From positions 4,494,828-4,558,827 of the forward strand of contig JAQJVL010000005.1 in the NCBI GenBank assembly GCA_035578905.1: 64,000 nucleotides of DNA, read 5' to 3'. The notes beneath the pieces were generated by a model. It made no database searches. It was not told where the DNA came from and worked only from the letters and a program-made list of their open reading frames with translations. Origin of the DNA: Stictocephala bisonia (taxonomy: Eukaryota > Arthropoda > Insecta > Hemiptera > Membracidae). Made by a program: the position numbers and the translations under genes. How positions within the stretch are numbered: the first letter of the stretch is position 1; each line of letters starts with the position of its first letter. Positions 22,801 through 58,213 of the stretch are shown one piece after another.

Positions 22801-22819
22801 GGTATTGACTACTGTACTT
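7895..22819. repeat. 71-bp satellite array, about 210 copies (~14.9 kb)
   Basis: The unit runs GTATTAACTACTGTACTTAC, AATCCAGCCTCCTGTACGAG, TCAGTACCATTGTAAGCGTG, CGGGAGGGCGG and repeats every 71 bp (for example 13860 to 13931). Each unit contains the inverted pair CTTACAAT / ATTGTAAG about 29 bp apart, so each monomer can fold as a hairpin. Sub-blocks are locally homogenised: about 9570-11080 carries GTAGGCGTACGGGAGGGCAG almost without change; 12400-14500 carries AAGCGTGCGGGAGGGCGG; 20200-22819 carries AAGCTTGCGGG. The left end (7895-8300) and patches at 9000-9420 and 14730-15480 are rich in single-base indels. Short frames in it are artefacts. Confidence 0.97.
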
Positions 22820-37905: not shown

Positions 37906-38106
37906 CCTTCCCCACCCCACTACATTTCTTCAAACATAGTTTATAAGTGTTTAACAATTTCGCAATGGAATATTCTATCAAACACTTGCCGATGTTTCGT
38001 GGCACATACTAATGGTAGACCACAGCAGGTTCTAACTAATAAATATGGTAACTATGTATTTAATGTTTAATTTTGTGTTTATCCGTGGCAACACTAACAT
38101 CTAACC

Positions 38107-38206
38107 TAGCCTAACCTAACCTAACCTAACCTAACCTAACCTAACCTAACCTAACCTAACCTAACCTAACCTAACCTAACCTAACCTAACCTAACCTAAC
38201 CTAACC
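38107..38206 (-). repeat. Interstitial insect telomeric repeat (TTAGG)n, ~19 copies
   Basis: An essentially perfect CCTAA run of about 97 bp on the plus strand, i.e. TTAGG on the minus strand. The motif is the canonical insect telomere repeat. Here it lies internally between unique sequence (ends ATCTAACCTAG and CCGACTCATG). It could be a relic of end-joining or of telomerase-mediated break repair, or a microsatellite. Confidence 0.95.
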
Positions 38207-40010: not shown

Positions 40011-40481
40011 TCCAAAAAACTAAATTGGCCTCTAAATATAAAAATCCAGTCTCTAAATTGGTGGAATCCGTAAAAGTATTTTAGTTTTATTTTTCTCTTC
40101 AGCTGATTGTATGGCACAGTATACTGTGCGTGTGTAATCCTAATTATAATTAGGAGGGTAAAAAATAATGACAATGCTTCAAATCCATTTGGCAACCTTG
40201 CTGTATAGTGCTCACTGTTAAGGAATGTGTTTTGACAATAATACCTTCTCTTCACTCACACACCTACCTACCAGCTTATTTGTTACCATAATGTACACAC
40301 TGTAGTGACTTGAGGAGACGCATAATAAGACACTGTTAAGCACAATGAACGTTAACCTATAGCGATATTTCGTTATCGACGAGGTGACCTCTGGCTTGTT
40401 TGTGGGTCATGCTCTGTATCATCTGTTGACTGAGACTTAGCTAACAAGACCTTTATTTACACATCATTAGTTAATCAAAGC
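40011..40481. other. Spacer between two 91-bp arrays, no gene seen
   Basis: Unique AT-rich sequence. A minus-strand frame of 121 codons runs from here into the preceding array (39890-40255) and has no recognisable domain. Confidence 0.45.
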
Positions 40482-41697
40482 CAAACGGCGTGCTCAAACA
40501 TTGCACCAACAACACGCACCCCAGTGACGAGATGTGTGTTTCGATATATTGTTTGGTATCGTGTCCCAAAGCCTAACGGTGTGCTCAAACATTGCACGAA
40601 CAACACGCAAAGCAGTGACGAGATGTTTTTTCGGTATATTGTTTGGTAGTGTGTCCCAAAGCTCAAAGGTGTGCTCAGACACTGCACCAACAACACGCAC
40701 CCCAGTGACGAGATGTGTGTTTCGATATATTGTTTGGTATCGTGTCCCAAAGCCTAACGGTGTGCTCAGACACTGCACCAACAACACGCAACCCAGTGAC
40801 GAGATGTTTGTTTCGGTATATTGTTTGGTAGTGTGTCCCAAAGCCTAACGGTGTGCTCAAACATTGCACCAACAACACGCAACCCAGTGACGAGATGTTT
40901 GTTTCGGTATATTGTTTGGTAGTGTGTCAGAAAGCTCAACGGTGTGCTCAGACACTGCACCAACAACACGCACCCCAGTGACGAGATGTGTGTTTCGATA
41001 TATTGTTTGGTAGCGTGCCCCAAAGCTAAACTGCGTGCTGAAACACTGCACCAACAACACGCACCCCAGTGGCGAGATGTGTGTTTCGGTTCATTGTTTG
41101 GTAGCGTGTCCCAAAGCCTAACGGTGTGCTCAAACATTGCACCAACAACACGCAACCCAGTGGCGAGATGTTTGTTTCGGTATATTGTTTGGTAGTGTGT
41201 CCCAAAGCTCAACGGTGTGCTCAGACACTGCACCAACAACACGCACCCCAGTGGTGAGATGTGTTTCGGTACATTGTTTAGTAGCGTGTCCCAAAGCCAA
41301 ACTACGTGCTGAGACACTGCACCAACAACACGCAACCCAGTGACGAGATGTTTGCTTCGGTATATTGTTTGGTAGTGTCCCAAAGCCCAACGGTGTGCTC
41401 AAACACTGCACCAACAACACGCAACCCAGTGACGAGATGTTTGTTTCAGTATATTCTTTGGTAGTGTGTCCCAAAGACCAACGGTGTACTGAGACACTGC
41501 ACCAAAAACACGCACCCCAGTGACGGGATGTTTGTTTCGGTATATTGTTTGGTAGTGTGTCCCAAAGCCCAACGGTGTGCTCAGACACTGCACCAACAAC
41601 ACGCACCCCAGTGACGGGATGTTTGTTTCGGTATATTGTTTGGTAGTGTGTCCCAAAGCCCAACGGTGTGCTCAGACACTGCACCAACAACACGTAG
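40482..41697. repeat. Second 91-bp minisatellite, ~13 copies, different sequence
   Basis: Units share GCACCAACAACACGCACCCC, AGTGACGAGATGTTTGTTTC, GGTATATTGTTTGGTA and GTGTCCCAAAGC. The period counted at the left end is 91 bp, with small indels in places. There is no visible sequence similarity to the 91-bp unit at 38810-40010. Many overlapping open frames on both strands result from repeat structure. Confidence 0.93.
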
Positions 41698-42597: not shown

Positions 42598-43489
42598 GAT
42601 CGGTACATGAACCGTCTGTTTATGTGTGTAAAAGGGAGGGAAGAATCGTCATGCTATACAAACAACGAATCCCTCTTATTAGGTACACAACCCGTTTGTT
42701 TATGTGTGTCAAAGGGTGGGAGGTAAGAATCATCATGCTTTACAAACAATGAGTCCCTCTTATTCGCTACATCAACCGTTTTTTATGTGTGTCAAAGGGT
42801 GGCAGGGAAGATTCATCATGCTATATGAATTCCTCTTATTCGCTACATCAACCGTTTTTTATGTGTGTCAAAGGGAGGGAGGTAAGAATCACCATGCTAT
42901 AAAAACAATAAATCCCTCTTATTCGCTACATCACCCGTTCTTTATGCGTGTCAAAGGGTGAGAGGGAAGACCCGTCATGCTATACAAACAATGAATCCCT
43001 TTTATTCGGAAAATCACCCGTTTGTTTATGTGTGTCAAAGGGTGGGTGGGAAGACCCGTCATGCTATACAAACAATGAATCCCTCTTATTAGGTACACCA
43101 CCCGTTTGTTTATGTGTGTCAAAGGGAGGGAGGGAAGAATCATCATGCTTTACAACCAATGAGTCCCTCTTATTCGCTACATCAACCGTTTTTTATGTGT
43201 GTCAAAGGGTGGCAGGGAAGATTCATCATGCTATATGAATTCCTCTTATTCGCTACATCAACTGTTTTTTATGTGTGTCAAAGGGAGGGAGGTAAGAATC
43301 ACCATGCTATAAAAACAATGCATCCCTCTTATTCGCTACATCACCCGTTCTTTATGCGTGTCAAAGGGTGAGAGGGAAGACCCGTCATGCTAAACAAACA
43401 ATGAATCCCTTTTATTCGGTAAATCACCCGTTTGTTTATGTGTGTCAAAGGGTGGGTGGGAAGACCCGTCATGCTATACAAACAATGAA
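42598..43489. repeat. 84-bp minisatellite, left part (interrupted by the palindromic element)
   Basis: Units share CGTTTGTTTATGTGTGTCAA, AGGGTGGGTGGGAAGACCCG, TCATGCTATACAAACAATGA and ATCCCTCTTATTCGGTAC. In this part a block of about 410 bp with variant units (CGCTACATCAACCGTTTTTT; CTATATGAATTCC) occurs twice (matching points 42731 and 43141). The array is the same as 56527-58213 and was continuous before insertion of the 13-kb element. Confidence 0.93.
43484..43489 (+). repeat. 6-bp target site duplication, left (AATGAA)
   Basis: AATGAA directly precedes the element. An uninterrupted array unit reads CAAACAATGAATCCCTC, so one AATGAA has been duplicated by the insertion. A length of 6 bp is the known hallmark of Polinton/Maverick integration. 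Confidence 0.88.
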
Positions 43490-43569
43490 AGTAGTAGGGT
43501 TATAGCGGTTGACAAACGCCCCATGAAGAGTTTTCGCCCCATGACGAGTCAGCTAGGTCAGTTTTTTTT

Positions 43570-43684
43570 AATGAGGTTCTAATGACCTTAACGAGTTTTT
43601 AATGAGGTTCTAATTGATCTTAACGAGTTTTTAATGAGGTTCTAATTGACCTTAACGAGTTTTTAATGAGGTTCTAATGACCTT
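43570..43684 (+). repeat. 31-32-bp tandem repeat near the left end, 4 units
   Basis: AATGAGGTTCTAATTGACCT followed by TAACGAGTTTTT is repeated four times, the last copy truncated. The right arm has three units (56363-56447). Subterminal tandem repeats of this kind often serve as binding sites for replication or integration proteins, but that is inference here. Confidence 0.9.
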
Positions 43685-44029
43685 GTAGTAGTCAAAAGAT
43701 GCCGATATTGCCGCCAGAATTTAGGATTTCTGCGTCAAATCGATTACCAGCCCTTCCCCCTTCCCCCTCTCCCCTCCCCCCCTCAAAATCAAAAGGGCCT
43801 CGACGATTACCGAAGGTTCCCGACAATCTCCGGAAACCCCCGAAGGTATTCTCCGAAACAATCAATACATTTCCCGTAAAAAGTGGTTTTTTGCTTATAT
43901 CTCGAAAACGGTGCGTCCTAGAGCCTTGGAAATTTTTTTCGACCCCCGAAAGTCTATTAGGCCCACCTGTATACACCATTTCCGACCTACCTATAACAAA
44001 ATTTTTCCAAAAATAACACCTTTGAACTT

Positions 44030-44268
44030 ATCTTTACCCCCACCACTTTGGATCTAGTTTCGTTATTTACCGTCCGATTTCGCTCAAATTTGGTACACGT
44101 GTACAGATACGCATGCCATACAATATAAACCGTTTGTATTATGTATATGTCGTCTCTGGACTTATCTTTACCCCCACCACTCCGGATCTAGTTTCGTTAC
44201 TTACCGTCCGATTTCGCTCAAATTTGGTACACGTGTACAGATACGCATGCAATACAATATAGCTAGGC
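44030..44268 (+). repeat. Duplicated ~100-bp block with GTACACGTGTAC palindromes (left arm)
   Basis: CTTATCTTTACCCCCACCAC, TAGTTTCGTTA, ACCGTCCGATTTCGCTCAAA and TTTGGTACACGTGTACAGAT recur in two direct copies about 133 bp apart. Each carries the 12-bp palindrome GTACACGTGTAC (44093-44104 and 44227-44238), which includes an E-box-like CACGTG. The block lies between the element end and the promoter, so it may be a regulatory or replication region. Confidence 0.8.
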
Positions 44269-44426
44269 TAAAAGTGCATTTTATATAGTATAACAAGGCT
44301 AATAGTGTATTTTATATAGTACAAAAAGGGAATTTGAGAGAAATTTGGGAATTTGAGGGAAATTTTGGGAGGGAAAATTCCCAACAGGTTGGCAGGAATG
44401 GGGGCCGCCATCTTGGATCCGGGGCA

Positions 44427-44466
44427 TATATATTACGATGATTTCAGGACAATCATCATTCAGTCT
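44427..44466 (+). promoter_or_regulatory. Predicted polB promoter, left arm (TATA + insect initiator)
   Basis: TATATATA at 44427-44434 is followed by TTCAGTCT, a match to the arthropod initiator TCAGTY, with the presumed +1 A at 44462. The spacing (about 28-35 bp from the TATA region) is canonical. The transcript would start about 475 bp upstream of the polymerase ATG and pass through two introns. Confidence 0.55.
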
Positions 44467-44531
44467 CAGACTTTTGAACGAGACACATCTAGCAGCTCCG
44501 CTATTTACAACGCATCTATTGCAACCGTATT

Positions 44532-44701
44532 GTAAGTATACATAACCTATAAATTCATTTTACTCTCTAGGAACATAACCTAACTTATCTTACCTTTACC
44601 AAGATATTGAAAAACATTTTTCTACAGACATTTCTAGAACTATACATACCCGAGTAGATAGATATTGAGAGTTTTACGATATTGTGTTTCATTTGTTGCA
44701 G
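44532..44701 (+). other. Predicted leader intron 1 of left polB (170 bp)
   Basis: Starts GTAAGTATAC, an excellent donor, and ends TTTCATTTGTTGCAG. The preceding exon has a short frame from ATG 44353, but it lies mostly upstream of the predicted start site and closes in exon 2. I therefore regard this region as 5' leader. Confidence 0.5.
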
Positions 44702-44782
44702 ATCAGCCATCCTCACAAAAACCTGCTACCACTCCATCACGTGACTTCGTCTACCCACGGCAACCACACCCATCTAATACAT

Positions 44783-44930
44783 GTAAGCCCTTATATATCA
44801 TTACTGTAGCATTTCCGTAACCCTAATGCCCCTAAGCAAACTTTAGACTTAGATTACCGTTCTCTTTACGGTATTTGCATAGATTACCTTAATGATCATG
44901 TTACTAATAAAAATTGTCCTTCTGTTCCAG
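44783..44930 (+). other. Predicted leader intron 2 of left polB (148 bp)
   Basis: Starts GTAAGCCCTT and ends TTGTCCTTCTGTTCCAG, a strong pyrimidine-rich acceptor, six bases before the polymerase ATG at 44937. This intron decides the start: the longer frame from 44892 would begin inside the intron. Confidence 0.55.
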
Positions 44931-44936
44931 ATCATC

Positions 44937-47900
44937 ATGAACCCCAACCAAATTGCATGCCCCAGATGCAGCAAGACCATGTCTAAGACAAACATAGCTC
45001 GCCATCTCAAGAGCTGCACCGGGCCTACAACGACTCGGGAGCCCCAGCGACCTTGCCCGTCCTGCGGGATGATGATCACCCTCTCCCACCGCAGCCGGCA
45101 CCTCAAGAAGTGCAGCCCCGCTCACCTCAAGAGGAAGGCTGGGGACCCTATCCCATCTATCTCCAAGACCGCCCGCATGGATGATGAGCCTCAGCCATCA
45201 ACGAGCTCGTCATCAATCATCAACAACGTGCGCTCCTCGATCGTGTCAGCATACAACACGGTTAAGACAGCAGTAGGCGATCTCATCGGAGGACATAAAC
45301 AATTGGAGATTATCGAAATCGAGAAGGCATTCAAGGGGCGAATGAAGACGTACTCCATCGATAACAAGCCTAACATAAAGGACCCCGCTGGATTTCTACA
45401 ACAAGCTCGTGAATTGGTTAAAGGCAAGATCGAGGAGAATGCGAGGGAAAAGAACATCAAGACGAACCTCGTCTTCCTTGTCAAGTATAAGAAGCCGATT
45501 GGAGACAAGGTAGAGGACAAAGAGATGAACTTTAAGACCAAGAACGTGGTTATACTCCCAACCGTAGACATCTTGGCCTATGTGGAGGATGCTGAGGGGA
45601 AGCTTTTGAAGGAGATGGATGAATTCTACGCTAAAGGCTCTGGCTGGACCTTAGCAAAGATCATTGGATTGGAGCTTAGAGTTAACCGATACGATCCCAT
45701 TCACGCATCAACCTACACCGAGCTGCCAAAAAAGATCAGCGATAAGAAGGCTGTTCTAAATATACAAAACACTGATCAGAAATGCTTCCTCTGGTCTGTG
45801 TTAGCGGCTCTCCATCCCGTCTCATGGCAAGATCAACCTCGCCGTATCCACCACTATCTACCATTCGAACACGAGCTGGATCAACATCTCCAAGGAATCA
45901 ACTTCCCCGTCACCCTTGATAAAATCACGCTATTCGAGAAGAGGAGCGGATTTTCCATCAACGTCTACGCCTACGACGAAAAGTGCATCGTATACCCGCT
46001 GCTGGTAACAAATGCAGAGAAACACACTCATATCGACCTCCTATACATCAAAGACGGAGACAACACGCATTATTGTCTCATTAGAGACCTCAGCCGACTC
46101 GTTAGGTCCCAGACTACTAATTATGAGCATAAGACGTGGATATGCCGCCGCTGCCTGCTACACTTTGGAACGCAGGACCTACTCAACCGTCACACGGAGG
46201 ACTGCAACGAGCACGAAGCCGTCAAGATTATTATGCCACCGGAGGGAAGCACCATCAAGTTTGAAGAGGGGCAGAAGAAGATGCGAGTCCCGTTCGCAAT
46301 GTACGCGGACTTTGAGTGCATGCTCACCCCCATCGAGGAGAACGAGGATCAGCCAATTGGACCGAGGAGATGCTATACCGAGAAGTACCAGAAGCATGAG
46401 GCCATCAGCTTCTGCTACTACATCGTGTATACCGATGGAGACTACGCCCACCCCGTCAGCTACTTTGGAGAGGATGCCGCCCAGGTCTTCGTAGAACGTC
46501 TACTAGATGAGTCGAGGAAGATTCACCAACTCTACTCCACCGCTGCAGCCATCCCGATGCAGCTAACTGCGGACGACGAGCAGGAATTTATCACGGCTAC
46601 CAACTGCCACATCTGTGAAAAGCCTTTCACCAACCCAGATGACTACAAGGTTCGTGATCACGATCACCTCACCGGAAAGTTTAGAGGCACAGCCCACAAC
46701 CTCTGCAACCTCAAGTTTCGGAAACCAAACTTTATACCCATCTTCATCCATAACTTGAGTGGGTACGACACCCATTTATTTATCAAAATGTTTGGGTTGA
46801 ATGACGAGACCATCAGCGTCGTACCTAACAATGAAGAACGCTACATCTCGTACACCATCGAGATTGAGGGTGGGGTGAAGCTGCGATTCCTCGACTCGTG
46901 CCGGTTCATGGCTTCGAGTCTCGATAAATTGGTAAATAACCTCGCACCCGAACACTTCAAACACACCTCACAATTCTACATTGGAGAGCAACTGCAGTTG
47001 CTTACAAAAAAGGGGATCTACCCCTACGACTTTATGGACTCCCTAGAAAAGTTCAAGTTGACATCTCTACCAGCAAAAGAAGACTTTTACAACAAATTAA
47101 ATATGGCTGGAATCTCCGATCAAGACTACGAGCATGCGCGGAAGATCTGGACTACATTCAACATCAAAAACATGCAGGAATATACTGAGCTCTACAACAA
47201 GACAGATGTGCTTCTATTGGCCGACATCATGGAGAACTTCCGAGACGTGTGCCTCCAGACCTATCAACTTGATCCAGCCTGGTACTTCACCGCACCTGGA
47301 CTCGCCTGGAGCGCCATGCTCAAGGTCACTAACATCGAGCTGGAGTTGCTCTCTGACTACAACATGAGCCTGATGATTGGCAAAGGAATTCGAGGAGGAG
47401 TTTCCCAAGTCTCATGCCGCTACGCCAAGGCCAACAACCCGTACACCGAGGACTATGATGAGGAGAAACCTACCAGCTACCTCACTTACCTGGATGCCAA
47501 CAATTTATACGGGTGGGCGATGAGCCAGCACATGCCCTACGGTGGTTTCAAGTGGGTGGAGCCAGTGGAGTTCGAGTGGGAAGGTAACAAGTACGGCTAC
47601 ATTGATATTATGGATGTAGCAGACGACAATGACATGGGATACATCTTGGAGGTGGATTTGGAGTACCCCAAAGAGCTCCACGACTCGCATTCCGACCTCC
47701 CCCTCGCCCCAGAGCAACGTATACCGCCGGGGGCTAAGGAGAGCAAGCTGCTTCTCACCCTCCATGACAAGGAGAAATACGTAGTACACTACCGCAACTT
47801 GAAGCAGTACTTGTTGCTGGGGATGAAGCTGACAAAAGTGCACCGAGCCGTCTGCTTTAACCAAAGCAGATGGCTGAAGAAATACATCGACCTAAATACC

Positions 47901-48794
47901 GATATGAGAACCCAGGCAAAAAACGATTTTGAGAAAGACTTCTTCAAACTGATGAACAATTCGGTGTTTGGGAAGACTATGGAGAACATCCGAAACCGAG
48001 TCGACATTCGCCTGGCAACAAAGGAACGACAAGTCCAAAAGTGGCTGGCAAAACCAAATTTTAAAAGCAGAACCATCTTCACCGAGCAGCTAGCAGCAGT
48101 TCATATGTCTAAAACGAAATTGTTGTTTAATAAGGCTATCTACGTAGGAATGAGCATCCTTGATATATCCAAAACCCTAATGTTCGACTTCCACTACAAC
48201 GTCATCAAGAGAAAATATGGAAACAAGGCTGAACTTCAGTACACCGACACCGACTCTCTGACATATCTCATCGAGACGGAACACTTTTACAAGGATATGA
48301 AGCAGATGATAGACTTCTTCGACACAAGCGACTACCCTCAGCCGAATCGATACAACATCCCGAGCGTGAACAAAAAGGTGATTGGTAAGTTCAAGGATGA
48401 ACTAAATGGTCGAGTTATGTATGAGCATGTTGGGCTTCGCTCAAAGATGTATGCGAGTCGCTCAGAAAAAAAGGACGACAAAGATGACGGGGAAATAAAA
48501 AAGAGCAAGGGTGTGAAGATGTGCGTGATAAAAAAAGATATTACCTTCCAAGATTATAAGGATTGTATGAAAGAATTTGCCGAAAAATACAGCACACTGG
48601 ACATAACACTTGGAGTGAAGCAAGATCACAGCTCTAAAGACTACCGCACTATGAACATGATCCGGAGTTTCAAGCACAATGTATATACCGTGGAGCTCAA
48701 CAAGATTGCCCTATCTGCTTACGATGATAAGAGATTTATCCTGGAGGGGGGCGTCAAGACCCTACCCTGGGGGCATTATCTAATTGATAAATAA
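44937..48794 (+). CDS. polB: Polinton-type protein-primed family B DNA polymerase, left copy (1,285 aa)
   Basis: Replicative DNA polymerase of the viral/Polinton protein-primed class (Pfam DNA_pol_B_2 type). Order of parts: C2HC zinc fingers C8-C11-H23-C27 and C40-C43-H55-C59; a Ser-rich linker; an OTU-like segment with D280-Q-K-C283 and H378-Y379, the layout of a cysteine-protease centre; a third zinc-finger-like C403-R-R-C406; ExoI D458-F-E460; an inserted C557/C560 plus H-D-H module like endonuclease VII; ExoII N606 to Y-D611; ExoIII Y753-N-K-T-D757; motif A D853-A-N-N-L-Y-G; motif B N1008-S-V-F-G; motif C Y1102-T-D-T-D-S1107. All catalytic acidic residues of both 3'-5' exonuclease and polymerase centres are present, so the protein could be active. 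I chose ATG 44937 because it follows a strong splice acceptor; an in-frame ATG at 44892 lies in the predicted intron. Codon use is GC-richer than the flanking DNA. A separate terminal protein was not found. The OTU assignment is inference from two short motifs. Confidence 0.9.
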   Translation: MNPNQIACPRCSKTMSKTNIARHLKSCTGPTTTREPQRPCPSCGMMITLSHRSRHLKKCSPAHLKRKAGDPIPSISKTARMDDEPQPSTSSSSIINNVRSSIVSAYNTVKTAVGDLIGGHKQLEIIEIEKAFKGRMKTYSIDNKPNIKDPAGFLQQARELVKGKIEENAREKNIKTNLVFLVKYKKPIGDKVEDKEMNFKTKNVVILPTVDILAYVEDAEGKLLKEMDEFYAKGSGWTLAKIIGLELRVNRYDPIHASTYTELPKKISDKKAVLNIQNTDQKCFLWSVLAALHPVSWQDQPRRIHHYLPFEHELDQHLQGINFPVTLDKITLFEKRSGFSINVYAYDEKCIVYPLLVTNAEKHTHIDLLYIKDGDNTHYCLIRDLSRLVRSQTTNYEHKTWICRRCLLHFGTQDLLNRHTEDCNEHEAVKIIMPPEGSTIKFEEGQKKMRVPFAMYADFECMLTPIEENEDQPIGPRRCYTEKYQKHEAISFCYYIVYTDGDYAHPVSYFGEDAAQVFVERLLDESRKIHQLYSTAAAIPMQLTADDEQEFITATNCHICEKPFTNPDDYKVRDHDHLTGKFRGTAHNLCNLKFRKPNFIPIFIHNLSGYDTHLFIKMFGLNDETISVVPNNEERYISYTIEIEGGVKLRFLDSCRFMASSLDKLVNNLAPEHFKHTSQFYIGEQLQLLTKKGIYPYDFMDSLEKFKLTSLPAKEDFYNKLNMAGISDQDYEHARKIWTTFNIKNMQEYTELYNKTDVLLLADIMENFRDVCLQTYQLDPAWYFTAPGLAWSAMLKVTNIELELLSDYNMSLMIGKGIRGGVSQVSCRYAKANNPYTEDYDEEKPTSYLTYLDANNLYGWAMSQHMPYGGFKWVEPVEFEWEGNKYGYIDIMDVADDNDMGYILEVDLEYPKELHDSHSDLPLAPEQRIPPGAKESKLLLTLHDKEKYVVHYRNLKQYLLLGMKLTKVHRAVCFNQSRWLKKYIDLNTDMRTQAKNDFEKDFFKLMNNSVFGKTMENIRNRVDIRLATKERQVQKWLAKPNFKSRTIFTEQLAAVHMSKTKLLFNKAIYVGMSILDISKTLMFDFHYNVIKRKYGNKAELQYTDTDSLTYLIETEHFYKDMKQMIDFFDTSDYPQPNRYNIPSVNKKVIGKFKDELNGRVMYEHVGLRSKMYASRSEKKDDKDDGEIKKSKGVKMCVIKKDITFQDYKDCMKEFAEKYSTLDITLGVKQDHSSKDYRTMNMIRSFKHNVYTVELNKIALSAYDDKRFILEGGVKTLPWGHYLIDK

Positions 48795-48900
48795 GCGATG
48801 CTAGACCGAGCCGTCTTAGACGCGCTGATGGTGGAGTAAGGAGACGGGTGGGAGCACAAGAGTGCAGGAGGTAGCAAATAGAAGAAGGTCGGCTACCACT

Positions 48901-48945
48901 TTCCGCAGCGGGGAGGGGCTGCGGAATCCCTTAAAATCCAATAAA
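48901..48945 (+). terminator. 3' hairpin and poly(A) signal of left polB
   Basis: TTCCGCAGC and GCTGCGGAA (48901-48926) form a 9-bp perfect stem with an 8-base GGGGAGGG loop, about 105 bp after the stop. AATAAA follows at 48940-48945. The hairpin just before the hexamer is kept in both arms and may help 3'-end formation. Confidence 0.6.
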
Positions 48946-49100
48946 TATTTTGGTTTACAAAAATCTTAATCAGTTATGAATTGGACACAATTCAATCCAG
49001 TTATGAATGTGAGAGAAACCATCGCCAGAGAGCTACACGCTCCAGCCAGAAGAACATTTCCCACCAGACCTGTATTTTTAACAGTACCACACTGTTACAG

Positions 49101-49223
49101 GTTACTAACATGTCCGTAGAAACCCAATTTACGACATTGGATGGGCTCAACCCGTCCGTAGTGCAATGTAAAAACCTCGTACTGGACGAACCTTCTTCTT
49201 AATTACGGTAACTTCTACGCCAG
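49101..49223 (+). other. Possible small exon with a 30-codon frame downstream of left polB
   Basis: Bounded by a CACACTGTTACAG acceptor and a CAG|GTAAGTA donor, both near-consensus. It contains ATG 49110 and a 30-codon frame ending TAA at 49202. The same frame extends upstream to ATG 48981 (73 codons) if the acceptor is not used. No domain is recognised. It could be a separate short gene, an alternative 3' exon, or chance. Confidence 0.3.
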
Positions 49224-49649
49224 GTAAGTAATGTTAAGTTAGTTTTAAGTAAACTCTTTTACCGTCAACCTTTAAAAAACAATCTGTAAAATAAATTCTG
49301 TTATAATATCTCCAGCTCTGTGTGAATTTCTATAGAATACCGTACCATCGAGGTGAGGGCGGCCCAAATTCAATAAAAAAGCCCGACTGTTCTCTAAGGC
49401 AGCCGTAAAACGCATAAGTCCTGAGGCAGTCCTGCAGCTTAGGGCTGGGCTAATCCCCGTAAGACCTTGAGTCGCAGTCCGGGCCCTCGTATGGTACGTG
49501 TATCTGGATGTGTGTAACACTCTATGGCTGGCTTAAACTCTGTAAGTCCAGGGTGTGAGTAAGGGATATTTTTAGTAACAAGAAAAATAAAATAAATAAA
49601 TAAAAGCCCTTTGTAAGTTTGTGCGTCACATTGAAAGGCTTCTGGGCCG

Positions 49650-49743
49650 TTTTTCTGTTTTCCTGTTTTCCTGTTTTCCTGTTTTTTCTGTTTTTCTGTT
49701 TTTCTGTTTTTCTGTTTTTCTGTTTTTCTGTTTTTCTGTTTTC
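49650..49743. repeat. TTTTTCTG microsatellite in the loop
   Basis: About eleven units of TTTTTCTG or TTTTCCTG. They produce Phe-rich frames on the plus strand and Lys/Glu/Asn-rich frames on the minus strand, neither of which I accept as coding. Confidence 0.9.
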
Positions 49744-49908
49744 CAAGTCTTTCTGCATCGCAATATGCAACAAAAGAAGTTCACAGGTATGGTGGGAAAT
49801 GTTCTTCCGGCTGGCGCGCGTGGCGAAGCCAAAGCTGATACAAGATCTTGTTCATTCGAATTCATGTTTGATAATAAAGAATTTAGAAAACAATTCTATT
49901 TATAGCCT

Positions 49909-49968
49909 GGGTTGGGCTAACTCGGGTTTTATTAACCCACGTTGATTTAACCCGGTTTAGCCCAACCC
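49909..49968. other. Imperfect 20-bp stem-loop in the palindrome loop
   Basis: GGGTTGGGCTAACTCGGGTT pairs with AACCCGGTTTAGCCCAACCC at 18 of 20 positions around a 20-base centre. It lies near the symmetry axis of the 13-kb palindrome, so it would sit close to the turn of a folded single strand. Confidence 0.7.
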
Positions 49969-50822
49969 GCCATGATAGACTGATAAGAAAAAGTGAAAAT
50001 ACGAGTCCTTTTATACTCTCAGTTGACCTTGAGAGAGTATTGTGCCTCCTTCCCTAAAGGTCTATGCAAGAGTCTTAACACTTGTCCTTGCATTCCCAGA
50101 CAAGACCATGACTATCAAGTCAATGCCTGTCCAGACAAGTCTTGACCCAAGTTTCCACACCACCCAAGGGGTATAGGGTCATTGCACTTTGTGCATTGGC
50201 GCGTTTTTTATTATAGTGGGTGTCCCCAGTAGGCATAATCCCACTTACTTTAATGTAACTTGCCTCAACCATCGCAAGCTACGGTGATAGCCACTCCATA
50301 ACAAAATTGCTACCTCCCAGTATTATTTTTGTGTTTCTTTTTCTTTATACTTTTTTTTTTTTTTTTTGGATCCACTATAAGTCTAGCCGCCACTTTACTT
50401 GGAGAAGCCTTTCAATGTGACGCACAAACTTACAAAGGGCTTTTATTTATTTATTTTATTTTTCTTGTTACTAAAAATATCCCTTACTCACACCCTGGAC
50501 TTACAGAGTTTAAGCCAGCCATAGAGTGTTACACACATCCAGATACACGTACCATACGAGGGCCCGGACTGCGACTCAAGGTCTTACGGGGATTAGCCCA
50601 GCCCTAAGCTGCAGGACTGCCTCAGGACTTATGCGTTTTACGGCTGCCTTAGAGAACAGTCGGGCTTTTTTATTGAATTTGGGCCGCCCTCACCTCGATG
50701 GTACGGTATTCTATAGAAATTCAAACAGAGCTGGAGATATTATAACAGAATTTATTTTACAGATTGTTTTTTAAAGGTTGACGGTAAAAGAGTTTACTTA
50801 AAACTAACTTAACATTACTTAC

Positions 50823-50945
50823 CTGGCGTAGAAGTTACCGTAATTAAGAAGAAGGTTCGTCCAGTACGAGGTTTTTACATTGCACTACGGACGGGTTGAG
50901 CCCATCCAATGTCGTAAATTGGGTTTCTACGGACATGTTAGTAAC
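50823..50945 (-). other. Possible small exon downstream of right polB
   Basis: Exact mirror of 49101-49223, same 123-bp length, splice signals and identical translated 30-codon frame. Identity between arms is high everywhere, so conservation here is weak evidence of function. Confidence 0.3.
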
Positions 50946-51100
50946 CTGTAACAGTGTGGTACTGTTAAAAATACAGGTCTGGTGGGAAATGTTCTTCTGG
51001 CTGGAGCGTGTAGCTCTCTGGCGATGGTTTCTCTCACATTCATAACTGGATTGAATTGTGTCCAATTCATAACTGATTAAGATTTTTGTAAACCAAAATA

Positions 51101-51145
51101 TTTATTGGATTTTAAGGGATTCCGCAGCCCCTCCCCGCTGCGGAA
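51101..51145 (-). terminator. 3' hairpin and poly(A) signal of right polB
   Basis: Mirror of 48901-48945: the same 9-bp stem at 51120-51145 and AATAAA (TTTATT on the plus strand) at 51101-51106. Confidence 0.6.
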
Positions 51146-51251
51146 AGTGGTAGCCGACCTTCTTCTATTTGCTACCTCCTGCACTCTTGTGCTCCCACCC
51201 GTCTCCTTACTCCACCATCAGCGCGTCTAAGACGGCTCGGTCTAGCATCGC

Positions 51252-54200
51252 TTATTTATCAATTAGATAATGCCCCCAGGGTAGGGTCTTGACGCCCCCC
51301 TCCAGGATAAATCTCTTATCATCGTAAGCAGATAGGGCAATCTTGTTGAGCTCCACGGTATATACATTGTGCTTGAAACTCCGGATCATGTTCATAGTGC
51401 GGTAGTCTTTAGAGCTGTGATCTTGCTTCACTCCAAGTGTTATGTCCAGTGTGCTGTATTTTTCGGCAAATTCTTTCATACAATCCTTATAATCTTGGAA
51501 GGTAATATCTTTTTTTATCACGCACATCTTCACACCCTTGCTCTTTTTTATTTCCCCGTCATCTTTGTCGTCCTTTTTTTCTGAGCGACTCGCATACATC
51601 TTTGAGCGAAGCCCAACATGCTCATACATAACTCGACCATTTAGTTCATCCTTGAACTTACCAATCACCTTTTTGTTCACGCTCGGGATGTTGTATCGAT
51701 TCGGCTGAGGGTAGTCGCTTGTGTCGAAGAAGTCTATCATCTGCTTCATATCCTTGTAAAAGTGTTCCGTCTCGATGAGATATGTCAGAGAGTCGGTGTC
51801 GGTGTACTGAAGTTCAGCCTTGTTTCCATATTTTCTCTTGATGACGTTGTAGTGGAAGTCGAACATTAGGGTTTTGGATATATCAAGGCTGCTCATTCCT
51901 ACGTAGATAGCCTTATTAAACAACAATTTCGTTTTAGACATATGAACTGCTGCTAGCTGCTCGGTGAAGATGGTTCTGCTTTTAAAATTTGGTTTTGCCA
52001 GCCACTTTTGGACTTGTCGTTCCTTTGTTGCCAGGCGAATGTCGACTCGGTTTCGGATGTTCTCCATAGTCTCCCCAAACACCGAATTGTTCATCAGTTT
52101 GAAGAAGTCTTTCTCAAAATCGTTTTTTGCCTGGGTTCTCATATCGGTATTTAGGTCGATGTATTTCTTCAGCCATCTGCTTTGGTTAAAGCAGACGGCT
52201 CGGTGCACTTTTGTCAGCTTCATCCCCAGCAACAAGTACTGCTTCAAGTTGCGGTAGTGTACTACGTATTTCTCCTTGTCATGGAGGGTGAGAAGCAGCT
52301 TGCTCTCCTTAGCCCCCGGCGGTATACGTTGCTCTGGGGCGAGGGGGAGGTCGGAATGCGAGTCGTGGAGCTCTTTGGGGTACTCCAAATCCACCTCCAA
52401 GATGTATCCCATGTCATTGTCGTCTGCTACATCCATAATATCAATGTAGCCGTACTTGTTACCTTCCCACTCGAACTCCACTGGCTCCACCCACTTGAAA
52501 CCACCGTAGGGCATGTGCTGGCTCATCACCCACCCGTATAAATTGTTGGCATCCAGGTAAGTGAGGTAGCTGGTAGGTTTCTCCTCATCATAGTCCTCGG
52601 TGTACGGGTTGTTGGCCTTGGCGTAGCGGCATGAGACTTGGGAAACTCCTCCTCGAATTCCTTTGCCAATCATCAGGCTCATGTTGTAGTCAGAGAGCAA
52701 CTCCAGCTCGATGTTAGTGACCTTGAGCATGGCACTCCAGGCGAGTCCAGGTGCGGTGAAGTACCAGGCTGGATCAAGTTGATAGGTCTGGAGGCACACG
52801 TCTCGGAAGTTCTCCATGATGTCGGCCAATAGAAGCACATCTGTCTTGTTGTAGAGCTCAGTATATTCCTGCATGTTTTTGATGTTGAATGTAGTCCAGA
52901 TCTTCCGCGCATGCTCGTAGTCTTGATCGGAGATTCCAGCCATATTTAATTTGTTGTAAAAGTCTTCTTTTGCTGGTAGAGATGTCAACTTGAACTTTTC
53001 TAGGGAGTCCATAAAGTCGTAGGGGTAGATCCCCTTTTTTGTAAGCAACTGCAGTTGCTCTCCAATGTAGAATTGTGAGGTGTGTTTGAAGTGTTCGGGT
53101 GCGAGGTTATTTACCAATTTATCGAGACTCGAAGCCATGAACCGGCACGAGTCGAGGAATCGCAGCTTCACCCCACCCTCAATCTCGACGGTGTACGAGA
53201 TGTAGCGTTCTTCATTGTTAGGTACGACGCTGATGGTCTCGTCATTCAACCCAAACATTTTGATAAATAAATGGGTGTCGTACCCACTCAAGTTATGGAT
53301 GAAGATGGGTATAAAGTTTGGTTTCCGAAACTTGAGGTTGCAGAGGTTGTGGGCTGTGCCTCTAAACTTTCCGGTGAGGTGATCGTGATCACGAACCTTG
53401 TAGTCATCTGGGTTGGTGAAAGGCTTTTCACAGATGTGGCAGTTGGTAGCCGTGATAAATTCCTGCTCGTCGTCCGCAGTTAGCTGCATCGGGATGGCTG
53501 CAGCGGTGGAGTAGAGTTGGTGAATCTTCCTCGACTCATCTAGTAGACGTTCTACGAAGACCTGGGCGGCATCCTCTCCAAAGTAGCTGACGGGGTGGGC
53601 GTAGTCTCCATCGGTATACACGATGTAGTAGCAGAAGCTGATGGCCTCATGCTTCTGGTACTTCTCGGTATAGCATCTCCTCGGTCCAATTGGCTGATCC
53701 TCGTTCTCCTCGATGGGGGTGAGCATGCACTCAAAGTCCGCGTACATTGCGAACGGGACTCGCATCTTCTTCTGCCCCTCTTCAAACTTGATGGTGCTTC
53801 CCTCCGGTGGCATAATAATCTTGACGGCTTCGTGCTCGTTGCAGTCCTCCGTGTGACGGTTGAGTAGGTCCTGCGTTCCAAAGTGTAGCAGGCAGCGGCG
53901 GCATATCCACGTCTTATGCTCATAATTAGTAGTCTGGGACCTAACGAGTCGGCTGAGGTCTCTAATGAGACAATAATGCGTGTTGTCTCCGTCTTTGATG
54001 TATAGGAGTTCGATATGAGTGTGTTTCTCTGCATTTGTTACCAGCAGCGGGTATACGATGCACTTTTCGTCGTAGGCGTAGACGTTGATGGAAAATCCGC
54101 TCCTCTTCTCGAATAGCGTGATTTTATCAAGGGTGACGGGGAAGTTGATTCCTTGGAGATGTTGATCCAGCTCGTGTTCGAATGGTAGATAGTGGTGGAT

Positions 54201-55109
54201 ACGGCGAGGTTGATCTTGCCATGAGACGGGATGGAGAGCCGCTAACACAGACCAGAGGAAGCATTTCTGATCAGTGTTTTGTATATTTAGAACAGCCTTC
54301 TTATCGCTGATCTTTTTTGGCAGCTCGGTGTAGGTTGATGCGTGAATGGGATCGTATCGGTTAACTCTAAGCTCCAATCCAATGATCTTTGCTAAGGTCC
54401 AGCCAGAGCCTTTAGCGTAGAATTCATCCATCTCCTTCAAAAGCTTCCCCTCAGCATCCTCCACATAGGCCAAGATGTCTACGGTTGGGAGTATAACCAC
54501 GTTCTTGGTCTTAAAGTTCATCTCTTTGTCCTCTACCTTGTCTCCAATCGGCTTCTTATACTTGACAAGGAAGACGAGGTTCGTCTTGATGTTCTTTTCC
54601 CTCGCATTCTCCTCGATCTTGCCTTTAACCAATTCACGAGCTTGTTGTAGAAATCCAGCGGGGTCCTTTATGTTAGGCTTGTTATCGATGGAGTACGTCT
54701 TCATTCGCCCCTTGAATGCCTTCTCGATTTCGATAATCTCCAATTGTTTATGTCCTCCGATGAGATCGCCTACTGCCGTCTTAACCGTGTTGTATGCTGA
54801 CACGATCGAGGAGCGCACGTTGTTGATGATTGATGACGAGCTCGTTGATGGCTGAGGCTCATCATCCATGCGGGCGGTCTTGGAGATAGATGGGATAGGG
54901 TCTCCAGCCTTCCTCTTGAGGTGAGCGGGGCTGCACTTCTTGAGGTGCCGGCTGCGGTGGGAGAGGGTGATCATCATCCCGCAGGACGGGCAAGGTCGCT
55001 GGGGCTCCCGAGTCGTTGTAGGCCCGGTGCAGCTCTTGAGATGGCGAGCTATGTTTGTCTTAGACATGGTCTTGCTGCATCTGGGGCATGCAATTTGGTT
55101 GGGGTTCAT
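51252..55109 (-). CDS. polB: Polinton-type protein-primed family B DNA polymerase, right copy (1,285 aa)
   Basis: Inverted second copy with the same length, domain order and start logic (ATG at 55109, six bases after a predicted acceptor). It differs from the left copy at five residues: D367E, I641V, A861V, K1013E and I1074S (left to right). A861 is eight residues after the motif A aspartate (Y-G-W-A becomes Y-G-W-V). K1013 immediately follows the motif B N-S-V-F-G and becomes Glu, a charge reversal beside the dNTP-binding region. The catalytic aspartates of motifs A and C and the exonuclease acids are unchanged. The frame is open from start to stop, so decay, if any, is by missense only. I infer that this copy is the less constrained one. 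Which copy is ancestral cannot be told from the window alone. Confidence 0.9.
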   Translation of the reverse strand: MNPNQIACPRCSKTMSKTNIARHLKSCTGPTTTREPQRPCPSCGMMITLSHRSRHLKKCSPAHLKRKAGDPIPSISKTARMDDEPQPSTSSSSIINNVRSSIVSAYNTVKTAVGDLIGGHKQLEIIEIEKAFKGRMKTYSIDNKPNIKDPAGFLQQARELVKGKIEENAREKNIKTNLVFLVKYKKPIGDKVEDKEMNFKTKNVVILPTVDILAYVEDAEGKLLKEMDEFYAKGSGWTLAKIIGLELRVNRYDPIHASTYTELPKKISDKKAVLNIQNTDQKCFLWSVLAALHPVSWQDQPRRIHHYLPFEHELDQHLQGINFPVTLDKITLFEKRSGFSINVYAYDEKCIVYPLLVTNAEKHTHIELLYIKDGDNTHYCLIRDLSRLVRSQTTNYEHKTWICRRCLLHFGTQDLLNRHTEDCNEHEAVKIIMPPEGSTIKFEEGQKKMRVPFAMYADFECMLTPIEENEDQPIGPRRCYTEKYQKHEAISFCYYIVYTDGDYAHPVSYFGEDAAQVFVERLLDESRKIHQLYSTAAAIPMQLTADDEQEFITATNCHICEKPFTNPDDYKVRDHDHLTGKFRGTAHNLCNLKFRKPNFIPIFIHNLSGYDTHLFIKMFGLNDETISVVPNNEERYISYTVEIEGGVKLRFLDSCRFMASSLDKLVNNLAPEHFKHTSQFYIGEQLQLLTKKGIYPYDFMDSLEKFKLTSLPAKEDFYNKLNMAGISDQDYEHARKIWTTFNIKNMQEYTELYNKTDVLLLADIMENFRDVCLQTYQLDPAWYFTAPGLAWSAMLKVTNIELELLSDYNMSLMIGKGIRGGVSQVSCRYAKANNPYTEDYDEEKPTSYLTYLDANNLYGWVMSQHMPYGGFKWVEPVEFEWEGNKYGYIDIMDVADDNDMGYILEVDLEYPKELHDSHSDLPLAPEQRIPPGAKESKLLLTLHDKEKYVVHYRNLKQYLLLGMKLTKVHRAVCFNQSRWLKKYIDLNTDMRTQAKNDFEKDFFKLMNNSVFGETMENIRNRVDIRLATKERQVQKWLAKPNFKSRTIFTEQLAAVHMSKTKLLFNKAIYVGMSSLDISKTLMFDFHYNVIKRKYGNKAELQYTDTDSLTYLIETEHFYKDMKQMIDFFDTSDYPQPNRYNIPSVNKKVIGKFKDELNGRVMYEHVGLRSKMYASRSEKKDDKDDGEIKKSKGVKMCVIKKDITFQDYKDCMKEFAEKYSTLDITLGVKQDHSSKDYRTMNMIRSFKHNVYTVELNKIALSAYDDKRFILEGGVKTLPWGHYLIDK

Positions 55110-55115
55110 GATGAT

Positions 55116-55263
55116 CTGGAACAGAAGGACAATTTTTATTAGTAACATGATAATTAAGGTAATCTATGCAAATACCGTAAAGAGAACGGTAATCTAAGTC
55201 TAAAGTTTGCTTAGGGGCATTAGGGTTACGGAAATGCTACAGTAATGATATATAAGGGCTTAC
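55116..55263 (-). other. Predicted leader intron 2 of right polB (148 bp)
   Basis: Mirror of the left intron 2. Donor GTAAGC at 55263-55258, acceptor CAG ending at 55116, six bases before the ATG at 55109. Same length in both arms. Confidence 0.55.
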
Positions 55264-55344
55264 ATGTATTAGATGGGTGTGGTTGCCGTGGGTAGACGAA
55301 GTCACGTGATGGAGTGGTAGCAGGTTTTTGTGAGGATGGCTGAT

Positions 55345-55514
55345 CTGCAACAAATGAAACACAATATCGTAAAACTCTCAATATCTATCTACTCGGGTAT
55401 GTATAGTTCTAGAAATGTCTGTAGAAAAATGTTTTTCAATATCTTGGTAAAGGTAAGATAAGTTAGGTTATGTTCCTAGAGAGTAAAATGAATTTATAGG
55501 TTATGTATACTTAC
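55345..55514 (-). other. Predicted leader intron 1 of right polB (170 bp)
   Basis: Exact mirror of the left intron 1: donor GTAAGT at 55514-55509 and acceptor CAG ending at 55345. Same length in both arms. Confidence 0.5.
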
Positions 55515-55581
55515 AATACGGTTGCAATAGATGCGTTGTAAATAGCGGAGCTGCTAGATGTGTCTCGTTCAAAAGTCTGAG

Positions 55582-55622
55582 ACTGAATGATGATTGTCCT
55601 GAAATCATCGTAATATATATAT
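55582..55622 (-). promoter_or_regulatory. Predicted polB promoter, right arm
   Basis: Mirror of the left promoter. The initiator TCAGT is intact, but the TATA tract has one more AT dinucleotide (TATATATATA), which shifts the TATA-initiator spacing by 2 bp relative to the left arm. Confidence 0.5.
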
Positions 55623-55786
55623 GCCCCGGATCCAAGATGGCGGCCCCCATTCCTGCCAACCTGTTGGGAATTTTCCCTCCCAAAATTTCCCTCAAATTCC
55701 CAAATTTCTCTCAAATTCCCTTTTTGTACTATATAAAATACACTATTAGCCTTGTTATACTATATAAAATGCACTTTTAGCCTAGC

Positions 55787-56028
55787 TATATTGTATTGCA
55801 TGCGTATCTGTACACGTGTACCAAATTTGAGCGAAATCGGACGGTAAGTAACGAAACTAGATCCGGAGTGGTGGGGGTAAAGATAAGTCCAGAGACGACA
55901 TATACATAATACAAACGGTTTATATTGTATGGCATGCGTATCTGTACACGTGTACCAAATTTGAGCGAAATCGGACGGTAAATAACGAAACTAGATCCAA
56001 AGTGGTGGGGGTAAAGATAAGTTCAAAG
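55787..56028 (-). repeat. Duplicated ~100-bp block with GTACACGTGTAC palindromes (right arm)
   Basis: Inverted counterpart of 44030-44268, with both direct copies and both GTACACGTGTAC palindromes preserved. Confidence 0.8.
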
Positions 56029-56362
56029 GTGTTATTTTTGGAAAAATTTTGTTATAGGTAGGTCGGAAATGGTGTATACAGGTGGGCCTAATAGACTTTC
56101 GGGGGTCGAAAAAAATTTCCAAGGCTCTAGGACGCACCGTTTTCGAGATATAAGCAAAAAACCACTTTTTACGGGAAATGTATTGATTGTTTCGGAGAAT
56201 ACCTTCGGGGGTTTCCGGAGATTGTCGGGAACCTTCGGTAATCGTCGAGGCCCTTTTGATTTTGAGGGGGGGAGGGGAGAGGGGGAAGGGGGAAGGGCTG
56301 GTAATCGATTTGACGCAGAAATCCTAAATTCTGGCGGCAATATCGGCATCTTTTGACTACTA

Positions 56363-56447
56363 CAAGGTCATTAGAACCTCATTAAAAACTCGTTAAGATC
56401 AATTAGAACCTCATTAAAAACTCGTTAAGGTCATTAGAACCTCATTA
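56363..56447 (-). repeat. 31-32-bp tandem repeat near the right end, 3 units
   Basis: Mirror of 43570-43684 with one internal unit fewer (the unit with CTAATTGACC). The loss or gain occurred after the arms separated, or was not removed by arm-to-arm conversion. Confidence 0.9.
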
Positions 56448-56526
56448 AAAAAAACTGACCTAGCTGACTCGTCATGGGGCGAAAACTCTTCATGGGGCGT
56501 TTGTCAACCGCTATAACCCTACTACT

Positions 56527-56532
56527 AATGAA
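56527..56532 (+). repeat. 6-bp target site duplication, right (AATGAA)
   Basis: AATGAA directly follows the element end CCTACTACT and continues as the ordinary array unit ATCCCTCTTATTAGG. It pairs with 43484-43489. Confidence 0.88.
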
Positions 56533-58213
56533 TCCCTCTTATTAGGTACACCACCCGTTTGTTTATGTGTGTCAAAGGGAGGGAGGGAAGAATCATCATG
56601 CTATAAAAACAATGAATCCCTTTATTTGGTACATCACCCGTTTGTTTATGTGTGTCAAAGGGAGGGAGGGAAGATTCATCAAGCTATAAAAACAATGAAT
56701 CCCTCTTATTTGGTACATCACCCGTTTGTTTATGTGTGTCAAAGGGAGCGAAGAATCGTCATGCTATACAAACAATGAATCCCTTTTATTCGGTACATCA
56801 CCTGTTTGTTTATGTGTGTCAAAGGGTGGGTGGGAAGACCCGTCATACTATAAAAACAATAAATCCCTCTTATTCGGTACATCACCCGTTTGTTTATGTG
56901 TGTCAAAGGGTGGATGGGAAGACCCGTCATGCTATGCAAACAATGAATCCCTTTTATTCGGTACATCACCCGTTTGTTTATGTGTGTCAAAGGGAGGTAG
57001 GGAAGATTCATCAAGCTATAAAAACAATGAATCCCTCTTTTTTGGTACATCACCCGTTTGTTTATGTTTGGCAAAGGGAGCGAAGAATCGTCATGCTATA
57101 CAAACAATGAATCCCTTTTATTCGGTACATCACCTGTTTGTTTATGTGTGTCAAAGGGTGGGTGGGAAGACTCGTCATACTATAAAAACAATGAATCCCT
57201 CTTATTCGGTACATCACCCGTTTGTTTATGTGTGTCAAAGGGTGGGTGGGAAGACCCGTCATACTATAAAAACAATGAATCCCTTTTATTCGGTACATCA
57301 CCTGTTTGTTTATGTGTGTCAAAGGGTGGGTGGGAAGACCCGTCATACTATAAAAACAATGAGTCCCTTTTATTTGGTACATCACCTGTTTGTTTATGTG
57401 TGTCAAAGGGTGGGTGGGAAGACCCATCATGCTATACAAACAATGAACCCCTATTATTCGGTACATCACCTGTTTGTTTATGTGTGTCAAAGGGAGGGTG
57501 GGAAGACCCGTCATGCTATACAAACAATGAATCCCTTTTATTCGGTACATCACCCGTTTGTTTATGTATGTCAAAGGGGGGGTGGGAAGACCCGTCATGC
57601 TATGCAAAAATGAATCCCTTTTATTCGGTACATCACCCGTTTGTTTATGTGTGTCAAAGGGTGGGTGAGAAGACCCGTCATGCTATACAAACAACGAATC
57701 CCTTTTATGCGGTACATCACCCGTTTGTTTATGTGTGTCAAAGGGTGGGTGGGAAGACCCGTCATGCTATGCACACAATGAATCCCTTTTATTCGGTACA
57801 TCACCCGTTTGTTTATGTGTGTCAAAGGGTGGGTGGGAAGACCCGTCATGCTATGCAAACAATGAATCCCTTTTATTCGGTACATCACCCGTTTGTTTAT
57901 GTGTGTCAAAGTGTGGGTGGGAAGACCCGTCATGCTATACAAACAACGAATCCCTTTTATGCGGTACATCACCCGTTTGTTTATGTGTGTCAAAGGGTGG
58001 GTGGGAAGACCCGTCATGCTATGCAAACAATGAATCCCTTTTATTCGGTACATCACCCGTTTGTTTATGTGTGTCAAAGTGTGTGTGGGAAGACCCGTCA
58101 TGCTATACAAACAACGAATCCCTTTTATGCGGTACATCACCTGTTTGTTTCTGTGTGTCAAAGGGTGGGTGGGAAGACCCGTCATGCTGTACAAACAATG
58201 TTGTTAAAAGTTA
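56533..58213. repeat. 84-bp minisatellite, right part, ~20 copies
   Basis: Continuation of 42598-43489 with the same CGTTTGTTTATGTGTGTCAA and TCATGCTATACAAACAATGA cores. An 84-bp period equals 28 codons, so frames of up to 391 codons stay open on the plus strand and about 200 on the minus strand as 28-residue repeats. Openness on both strands argues for period effects, not coding. A sub-block with TTATGCGGTACATC and TCAAAGTGTG variants alternates near 57690-58130. Confidence 0.94.

Follow-up and report, generated by a model that had tools for sequence, protein, structure and literature searches.

Palindromic Polinton-like polymerase elements form a multicopy family in the genome of Stictocephala bisonia

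A stretch of 64,000 nucleotides from Stictocephala bisonia (assembly GCA_035578905.1, contig JAQJVL010000005.1, positions 4,494,828 to 4,558,827; hereafter the window) carries a 13-kb palindrome with one PolB polymerase gene in each arm. Palindromes of this type are found at many loci of the same genome, where they insert as single units, and they look like derivatives of a Polinton/adintovirus-type element. Most probably they are fold-back (snapback) half-genomes of a Polinton, inserted in trans by the integrase of the parent.

Structure, copies and insertion of the PolB palindromes

The palindrome (43490-56526) has two inverted arms of 6154 and 6124 bp. In a MAFFT alignment the arms differ by 10 substitutions, one 2-bp insertion/deletion (indel) and one 32-bp indel, the latter in tandem repeats near the outer end; blastn gives 99.75% identity over 6050 columns with 12 mismatches. 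For an inverted match of 6.1 kb at >99%, chance is ruled far out. The termini read AGTAGTAGGG on the left and CCCTACTACT on the right, i.e. AGTAG...CTACT, and the hexamer AATGAA flanks the element on both sides, inside an 84-bp satellite. The palindrome described in the original prediction is thus real. The AATGAA duplication claimed there is present as well; it is weak alone, since the satellite unit contains AATGAA, and was made firm by other copies. One open PolB frame lies in each arm (44883-48794 on the plus strand and 51252-55163 on the minus strand, first ATG at 44937 and 55109). The 759-bp stretch between the arms had been regarded as a spacer loop. This was rejected, as it belongs to the right arm and forms its inner end, and unbroken copies (C5583, C3899, C3804 and C522; loci are given by C numbers) have the equivalent sequence in both arms. 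The window copy lacks the left innermost ~0.75 kb up to the centre and is therefore asymmetric.

The host genome (1.68 Gb, 11105 contigs) was searched for PolB, which gave at least 36 matches with 94-100% identity, many as head-to-head pairs. Two combined PolB searches yielded 56 PolB positions on 38 contigs in 39 loci; the counts of PolB loci given here hold among the matches listed. Opposite-strand pairs with no integrase listed within 8 kb made up 17 loci, and all 17 were convergent. Second-arm probes (14 of 1 kb, one of 2.5 kb) were used at 15 seemingly single loci, leaving out a sixteenth, C10657, which ends at the contig end. An inverted second arm was found at nine of these loci and not at the other six; beyond the 17 pairs already listed, the probes thereby added four (C8758, C93, C127, C1273). 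Altogether, 21 of the 39 loci are inverted pairs without a listed integrase, so that other genome copies are palindromic too. At 12 loci a single PolB is followed by an integrase, and six loci (C10657, C13, C33, C489, C3143, C227) were counted in neither class. At C577:526851-529932 the family's ends enclose a palindrome reduced by deletion to 3.1 kb, which makes it a miniature, non-autonomous derivative. At C13, C35, C10657 and C1253 extra inverted pieces (arm positions ~309-934) were seen just outside the PolB 5' end, and the outer structure differs there.

Both ends were read for 13 palindromes, and all 13 have AGTAG...CTACT. The remaining palindromes are cut by contig ends or were not read at both ends; the ends of C93 and C4964 were looked for at the expected place and not found. 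For 12 palindromes (C3899 left out) the hexamers flanking the element on its left and right sides were compared. The 6-bp duplication was exact in 10 and matched at 5 of 6 bases in two. At lengths of 4, 5, 7 or 8 bases none of the 12 was exact. Cross-pairings between different elements gave no exact match (0/132) and four matches at ≥5 of 6 bases (4/132). The flanks on the two sides are distinct at all 12 elements. Because the duplications lie at the ends of the whole palindrome and no cross-pairing is exact, the palindrome inserts and moves as a single unit, as had been predicted. Polintons/Mavericks are defined by a 6-bp target-site duplication, a 5'-AG terminus and terminal inverted repeats, and all three are present in the palindromes.

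Fold-back chimeric reads or missed adapters could also place inverted arms in an assembly. Several copies do lie in short contigs, and at C3899 the mirrored sequence runs into the flank near a contig end. However, the window copy is well inside a contig of 9.1 Mb, distinct flanks with target duplications were found at 12 elements, the arms differ by substitutions and the architecture recurs at 21 of 39 loci. An assembly artefact was rejected on these grounds and is very improbable.

The PolB protein has an N-terminal part with zinc-finger-like motifs, exonuclease and polymerase motifs, and an endonuclease-VII match. Its nearest named relatives are leafhopper proteins (Homalodisca vitripennis, 71%; Macrosteles quadrilineatus, 67%). 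A structure model of the catalytic part, made with 46 sequences, reached a predicted local distance difference test (pLDDT) score of 90 (28 with 10 close sequences). Among PDB entries this model fits phi29 DNA polymerase best, in one case as a complex with terminal protein; among viral models the best fold matches are densovirus, Drosophila adintovirus and bidnavirus-type PolB. Two relatives 51% identical to the window PolB match PF03175 (1.7e-22 and 4.9e-27). Fold and relatives agree with the original prediction, and the model indicates a PolB of the protein-primed type. PDB sequence searches gave no polymerase match, an NCBIfam search gave no family, and PHROGs gave endonuclease VII and weak unknowns only; in a search of viral contigs two stretches fitted a pattern and no relatives were found. 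An OTU-like N-terminal domain is expected in adintovirus-type PolB (PMC11071296). Pfam found no OTU match in the window PolB, and the structure model covers the catalytic part only.

The ratio of nonsynonymous to synonymous divergence (dN/dS) was determined in 17 chosen pairwise PolB comparisons. It was 0.13-0.24 in the 11 comparisons with dS >0.03, and 0.11, 0.31 and 0.36 in three shallow comparisons between elements. Between the arms of three elements it was 0.36-0.78, on 8-12 changes each. PolB is under purifying selection.

Integrase-bearing elements, palindrome centres and gene 2

Eleven of the 39 PolB loci combine a single PolB with a same-strand integrase no more than 8 kb away, and at C75:1004810 an integrase-like frame downstream of PolB was recognised by sequence. 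The PolB of such elements, which bear integrase, ATPase and phospholipase A2 (PLA2) genes in the same genome, is 96-97% identical. Stretches downstream of PolB on the same strand were read at C75:1004810, C9, C35 and C2605 (hereafter the parents), covering not every gene at every locus. The integrase matches rve above the cut-off (1e-8) and Chromo below it (0.0017), the packaging ATPase matches Pox_A32 (7.5e-10) and the PLA2-like gene matches Phospholip_A2_4 (2.8e-14). A homologue of a further gene, gene 2, and a repeat protein with a tail-fibre-like motif are seen as well. A single gene order fits the ATPase and PLA2 positions of the four parents and the integrase position of three. No protease or major capsid gene was recognised in the parent stretches read, where no search was aimed at them. 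Searches of the host genome gave at least 126 integrase, 150 ATPase and 150 PLA2 matches; a PF00665 search gave at least 150 retroelement-like matches and was unusable. The one parent end read is that of C2605, which starts with AGTAGTAGGATTATGGGGGTTGACAAACG, closely like the palindrome terminus.

Integrase was considered as a gene of the palindrome and rejected: no rve integrase frame was found in the window element, and none is listed within 8 kb of 17 listed palindromes. PolB is the sole long gene of the window palindrome, and no packaging ATPase, protease or capsid gene was recognised there. Among the matches listed, integrase occurs in inverted pairs at two of 124 loci (C2704, C119). The rare inverted pairs with integrase and/or ATPase (C2704:66436-70589, C1270:19567-22177, C119:8094-14718) are possible palindromes with another fold-back point.

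The integrase-bearing loci appear to be parents of Polinton/adintovirus type. Because they occur in the same genome with a PolB 96-97% identical and a like terminus, the palindromes look like derivatives of such an element. The independent, polymerase-only minimal class suggested in the original prediction was given up for the same reason. That prediction had also named a refuting case, Polinton fragments duplicated at this site only; the palindromes are indeed fragments, but they lie at many loci.

At C5583, C3899, C3804 and C522 the junction of the arms is AAAACGGCCGTTTT, flanked by a (CAGRAAAA)n and a (TTTTYCTG)n array, and C7724 has the same centre; this brings the loci with a centre without spacer to five. 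Other centres vary. C8758 has CGG/CCG in imperfect surroundings, in C5351 the 48 bases on either side pair perfectly, and C577 has a one-base spacer with the family's array present. For C5564 and C311 the halves scored best when separated by 7 and 10 bases; both points fall within arrays, where the exact position is uncertain. C1193 has another, near-perfect centre and C5021 is asymmetric. None of the centres read consists of host sequence; they are made of array of the element type. In the window copy this is the (GTTTTTCT)n array beside the centre, and two sequenced parents have an array of the same kind between the ATPase gene and the gene-2 homologue, upstream of the latter. In the window copy the first 14 codons of gene 2 adjoin the centre, reading inwards. 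Because the PolB palindromes keep these codons by the centre and the parents have a like array between ATPase and gene 2, their fold-back point appears to lie in sequence of the array/gene-2-start kind. The family thus has the architecture of snapback subgenomes, with one terminus at both ends, symmetric arms and a centre inside element sequence, the window copy being an asymmetric form.

Between palindrome groups, the inner arm adjoining the centre is 75-78% alike. A stretch of ~170-200 bp of the inner arm (window arm 5650-5820) is 98.8-99.5% alike between lineages whose PolBs are ~94-96% alike, and neighbouring stretches are 93-96% alike. Recombination or a constrained site perhaps accounts for this stretch.

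Gene 2 itself was found in an 8.0-kb palindrome at C225, which has the same terminal sequence at both ends. It has 307 codons (in a 318-codon frame) and was read in part in each arm, the arms matching in inverted orientation at 99.8% over 500 bp; the window remnant agrees with it at 40 of 42 bases. Among the best 150 of 195 gene-2 matches there are 40 opposite-strand pairs <10 kb apart, all 40 divergent, besides 67 single matches and three same-strand neighbours; pairs other than C225 are known by position only. A second palindrome class, carrying another Polinton-type gene, thus exists. Relatives of gene 2 carry the precomputed label PF26634 (30/30 rows), but a Pfam search found no family in the query or three relatives. 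The idea that these palindromes are 'right-end' fold-backs was withdrawn, as the gene 2 of the parents is 35-36% identical and no close opposite-strand pair of PLA2 was found. PLA2 lies beyond gene 2 in the parents, and among the 150 PLA2 matches listed there are no opposite-strand pairs <11 kb apart. A second gene-2 type with a 361-aa frame (e.g. C3445, C1044, C94) forms divergent pairs mostly 7-9 kb apart, and probably represents a further palindrome class, in which different genes lie close to the centre.

Origin and propagation of the palindromes

Matched arms, a recurrent centre and insertion as a unit favour an inverted dimer formed by fold-back, which is the likeliest origin, as the original prediction had it. 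In such a process the terminus would serve as the primed origin. A strand displaced by protein-primed synthesis would fold back at a repeat-rich site, and synthesis with the strand itself as template would then run on to the terminus, yielding a duplex whose two termini are both PolB ends. Strands displaced later would fold into half-length hairpins whose stem is the whole arm, double-stranded terminus included. By hairpin copying the palindrome could replicate itself, one arm being copied into the other, so that the arms would be made alike in each round. The integrase of the parent and PolB from either source would act in trans on the shared AGTAG terminus.

Such palindromes could have formed a lasting class of self-complementary DNA replicon. 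Their genome would consist entirely of one inverted repeat, any strand displaced from it would at once be a hairpin equipped with a complete origin, and PolB would be selected on the palindromes themselves. Complementary palindromes (the PolB type, the gene-2 type and possibly others) would make up a multipartite set dependent on resident Polintons for the integrase and perhaps for the capsid. The high inner-arm likeness between groups spans only ~170-200 bp, which tells against this reading, and we consider it rather unlikely. Alternatively, palindromes may arise repeatedly as by-products of full-length Polinton replication and be inserted once, as dead-end defective genomes with no self-propagating lineage. 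Elements of the full-length type are abundant, as the integrase and ATPase matches attest, and in the tree the PolBs of C9, C10657, C35, C75 and C2605 lie between two palindrome groups. The centres differ between groups, the inner arm by the centre is no more than 75-78% alike, and the near-identical stretch gives way to 93-96% just beside it. In adeno-associated virus (AAV), snapback defective genomes form readily (PMC8235507). However, the centre AAAACGGCCGTTTT recurs in five loci, and the order of PolB end, gene-2 start and array in both arms is common to several copies, whereas the sequenced parents are without the junction. This origin as by-products is a real possibility, but less likely than not.

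Arms within one element are closely alike. In six elements with both arms, the nearest relative of each PolB arm among 30 copies was its own partner (12/12). At C577 one PolB deletion is shared by the two arms (inverted match of 99.6% across 463 bp), C3804 has the same duplicated ~305-bp stretch in both, and the same terminal array, with tandem arrays longer than those of the window copy, is found in both arms of C1248 (417 bp identical). Long chromosomal palindromes, such as those of the Y chromosome, undergo arm-to-arm conversion. Gene conversion after insertion might likewise keep the arms alike here, in which case the palindrome would be uninformative on replication, and one C3899 arm (C3899b) groups with C93a in the tree, as a mosaic would. 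The window copy, however, keeps private asymmetries (the lost left inner arm, the 32-bp and 2-bp indels and 10 substitutions), and at C577 the deletion is in both arms with the family's array at the centre. We therefore judge this explanation unlikely.

Aberrant transposition using two like ends, on sister chromatids or neighbouring copies, or a chromosomal inverted duplication would need no replication fold-back. The mirrored host flank at C3899 and the extra inverted pieces near the outer end in C13, C35, C1253 and C10657 are in line with such events. They do not explain why the duplications flank the palindrome as a whole at all 12 usable insertions (10 exact, two at 5/6), why the centres read are element-type array and not host, or why deletions and expansions are common to both arms. 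This origin is quite unlikely.

Several observations weigh against the fold-back origin or qualify it. At C3899 (C3899:570-18698) the mirror image continues ~2 kb into the host flank (99.8% over 1913 bp) with no target duplication; this is unexplained by unit insertion and may reflect a later chromosomal inverted duplication or misassembly. FastTree separates the two C3899 arms, though they are nearest by distance, and arm likeness in general could come from gene conversion after insertion. PF03175 is matched neither by the window PolB nor by two closer relatives, only by more distant ones. The evidence on the parent terminus is one end of one parent. Of the 1921 nt of inner arm, the parent sequence 3' of PolB matches only the first ~280 and some short pieces, and the gene 2 of the parents is 35-36% identical to that of C225; for these reasons no immediate parent with the exact junction is seen among the sequenced parents. 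Finally, no free or hairpin molecule was seen, and replication and integration in trans are inferred.

Window features and known systems

The coordinates of the window features are given in Table 1. Outside the palindrome, a TTAGG-type array, (CTAAC)21 with 98% matches, lies at 38101-38206, in the middle of the 9-Mb contig; we take its motif to be of the kind carried by arthropod telomeres. The window is rich in differing minisatellites (2934-6421, 8086-22823, 30405-31237, 32795-34844, 38815-40006, 40476-41694 and 62946-63911), the largest with a 71-bp unit in 207 copies (14.7 kb).

Table 1. Palindrome and satellite features, in window positions
Feature	Position	Strand
84-bp satellite hit by insertion, left part	42612..43489	
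Target-site duplication AATGAA, left copy	43484..43489	
Left arm, innermost ~0.75 kb absent in window copy	43490..49643	+
31/32-bp tandem repeats near left terminus, one unit more than right arm	43565..43684	+
PolB gene, left arm, intact	44937..48794	+
Inner end of right arm (former 'loop'), starts GGGCCG at palindrome centre	49644..50402	
(GTTTTTCT)n microsatellite adjoining centre	49649..49742	
First 14 codons of gene 2 (MNSNEQDLVSALAS), reading towards centre, remnant	49824..49865	-
Right arm, part having left counterpart	50403..56526	-
PolB gene, right arm, intact	51252..55109	-
31/32-bp tandem repeats near right terminus	56364..56451	-
Target-site duplication AATGAA, right copy	56527..56532	
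84-bp satellite, right part	56527..58200	

Several known systems share parts of this picture. Foldback elements such as FB and Galileo are transposons made up mostly of one long inverted repeat; unlike the palindromes, they usually have non-coding arms, belong to another transposase class and are not PolB elements. Defective adenovirus genomes with symmetric left ends are inverted duplications of one end of a protein-primed replicon, but were seen in virus stocks and are not inherited in a host genome. Polintons/Mavericks (PMC6431247) share the protein-primed-type PolB and inverted termini with the palindrome, and the retroviral-type integrase and packaging ATPase with the parents. In contrast, the palindrome is without integrase, ATPase and other parental genes, and its polymerase lies inside an inverted repeat that is the whole element. 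Lacking integrase and packaging genes it falls outside the Polintons, yet it is Polinton-like at its ends. Adintoviruses (PMC11071296) resemble the family in the PolB structural match and in the rve integrase of the parents with its weak chromodomain match. Unlike adintoviruses, the palindromes are half genomes, and no hexon or penton gene was identified in the parent stretches read, which cover the parents in part. AAV snapback subgenomes are likewise self-complementary, contain the left or right part of the parent and occur in symmetric and asymmetric forms (PMC8235507); AAV, however, is a parvovirus in particles, whereas the elements described here are Polinton-type multicopy insertions in a host genome. 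Bidnaviruses, whose PolB is among the closest structural relatives, have a Polinton-derived PolB and carry their genes on separate molecules, but they are capsid viruses with parvoviral genes and terminal repeats without polymerase (PMC4061559).

Palindromic Polintons were not described in the titles and abstract openings listed in the literature searches, a scope that mostly leaves aside subscription papers, and 'Polinton' combined with 'snapback' returned nothing. The parts are known, namely PolB and integrase of Polintons/adintoviruses and snapback genomes; in that literature no genomic family made up of many fold-back Polinton halves came up.

For genome annotation, the family is a warning that polymerase genes lying as inverted pairs can form a unit rather than reflect assembly noise. 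The copying of Polinton DNA has so far been largely inferred from the polymerase, and fold-back copies provide natural evidence on how it may work. Strand-displacement replication from the termini predicts just such a record, in which fold-back half-elements are numerous, keep a fixed polarity and have matched arms and recurrent centres, and the idea becomes testable. The palindromes also suggest that Polintons can give rise to satellite elements multiplying alongside them, for which the snapback genomes of AAV offer a comparison.

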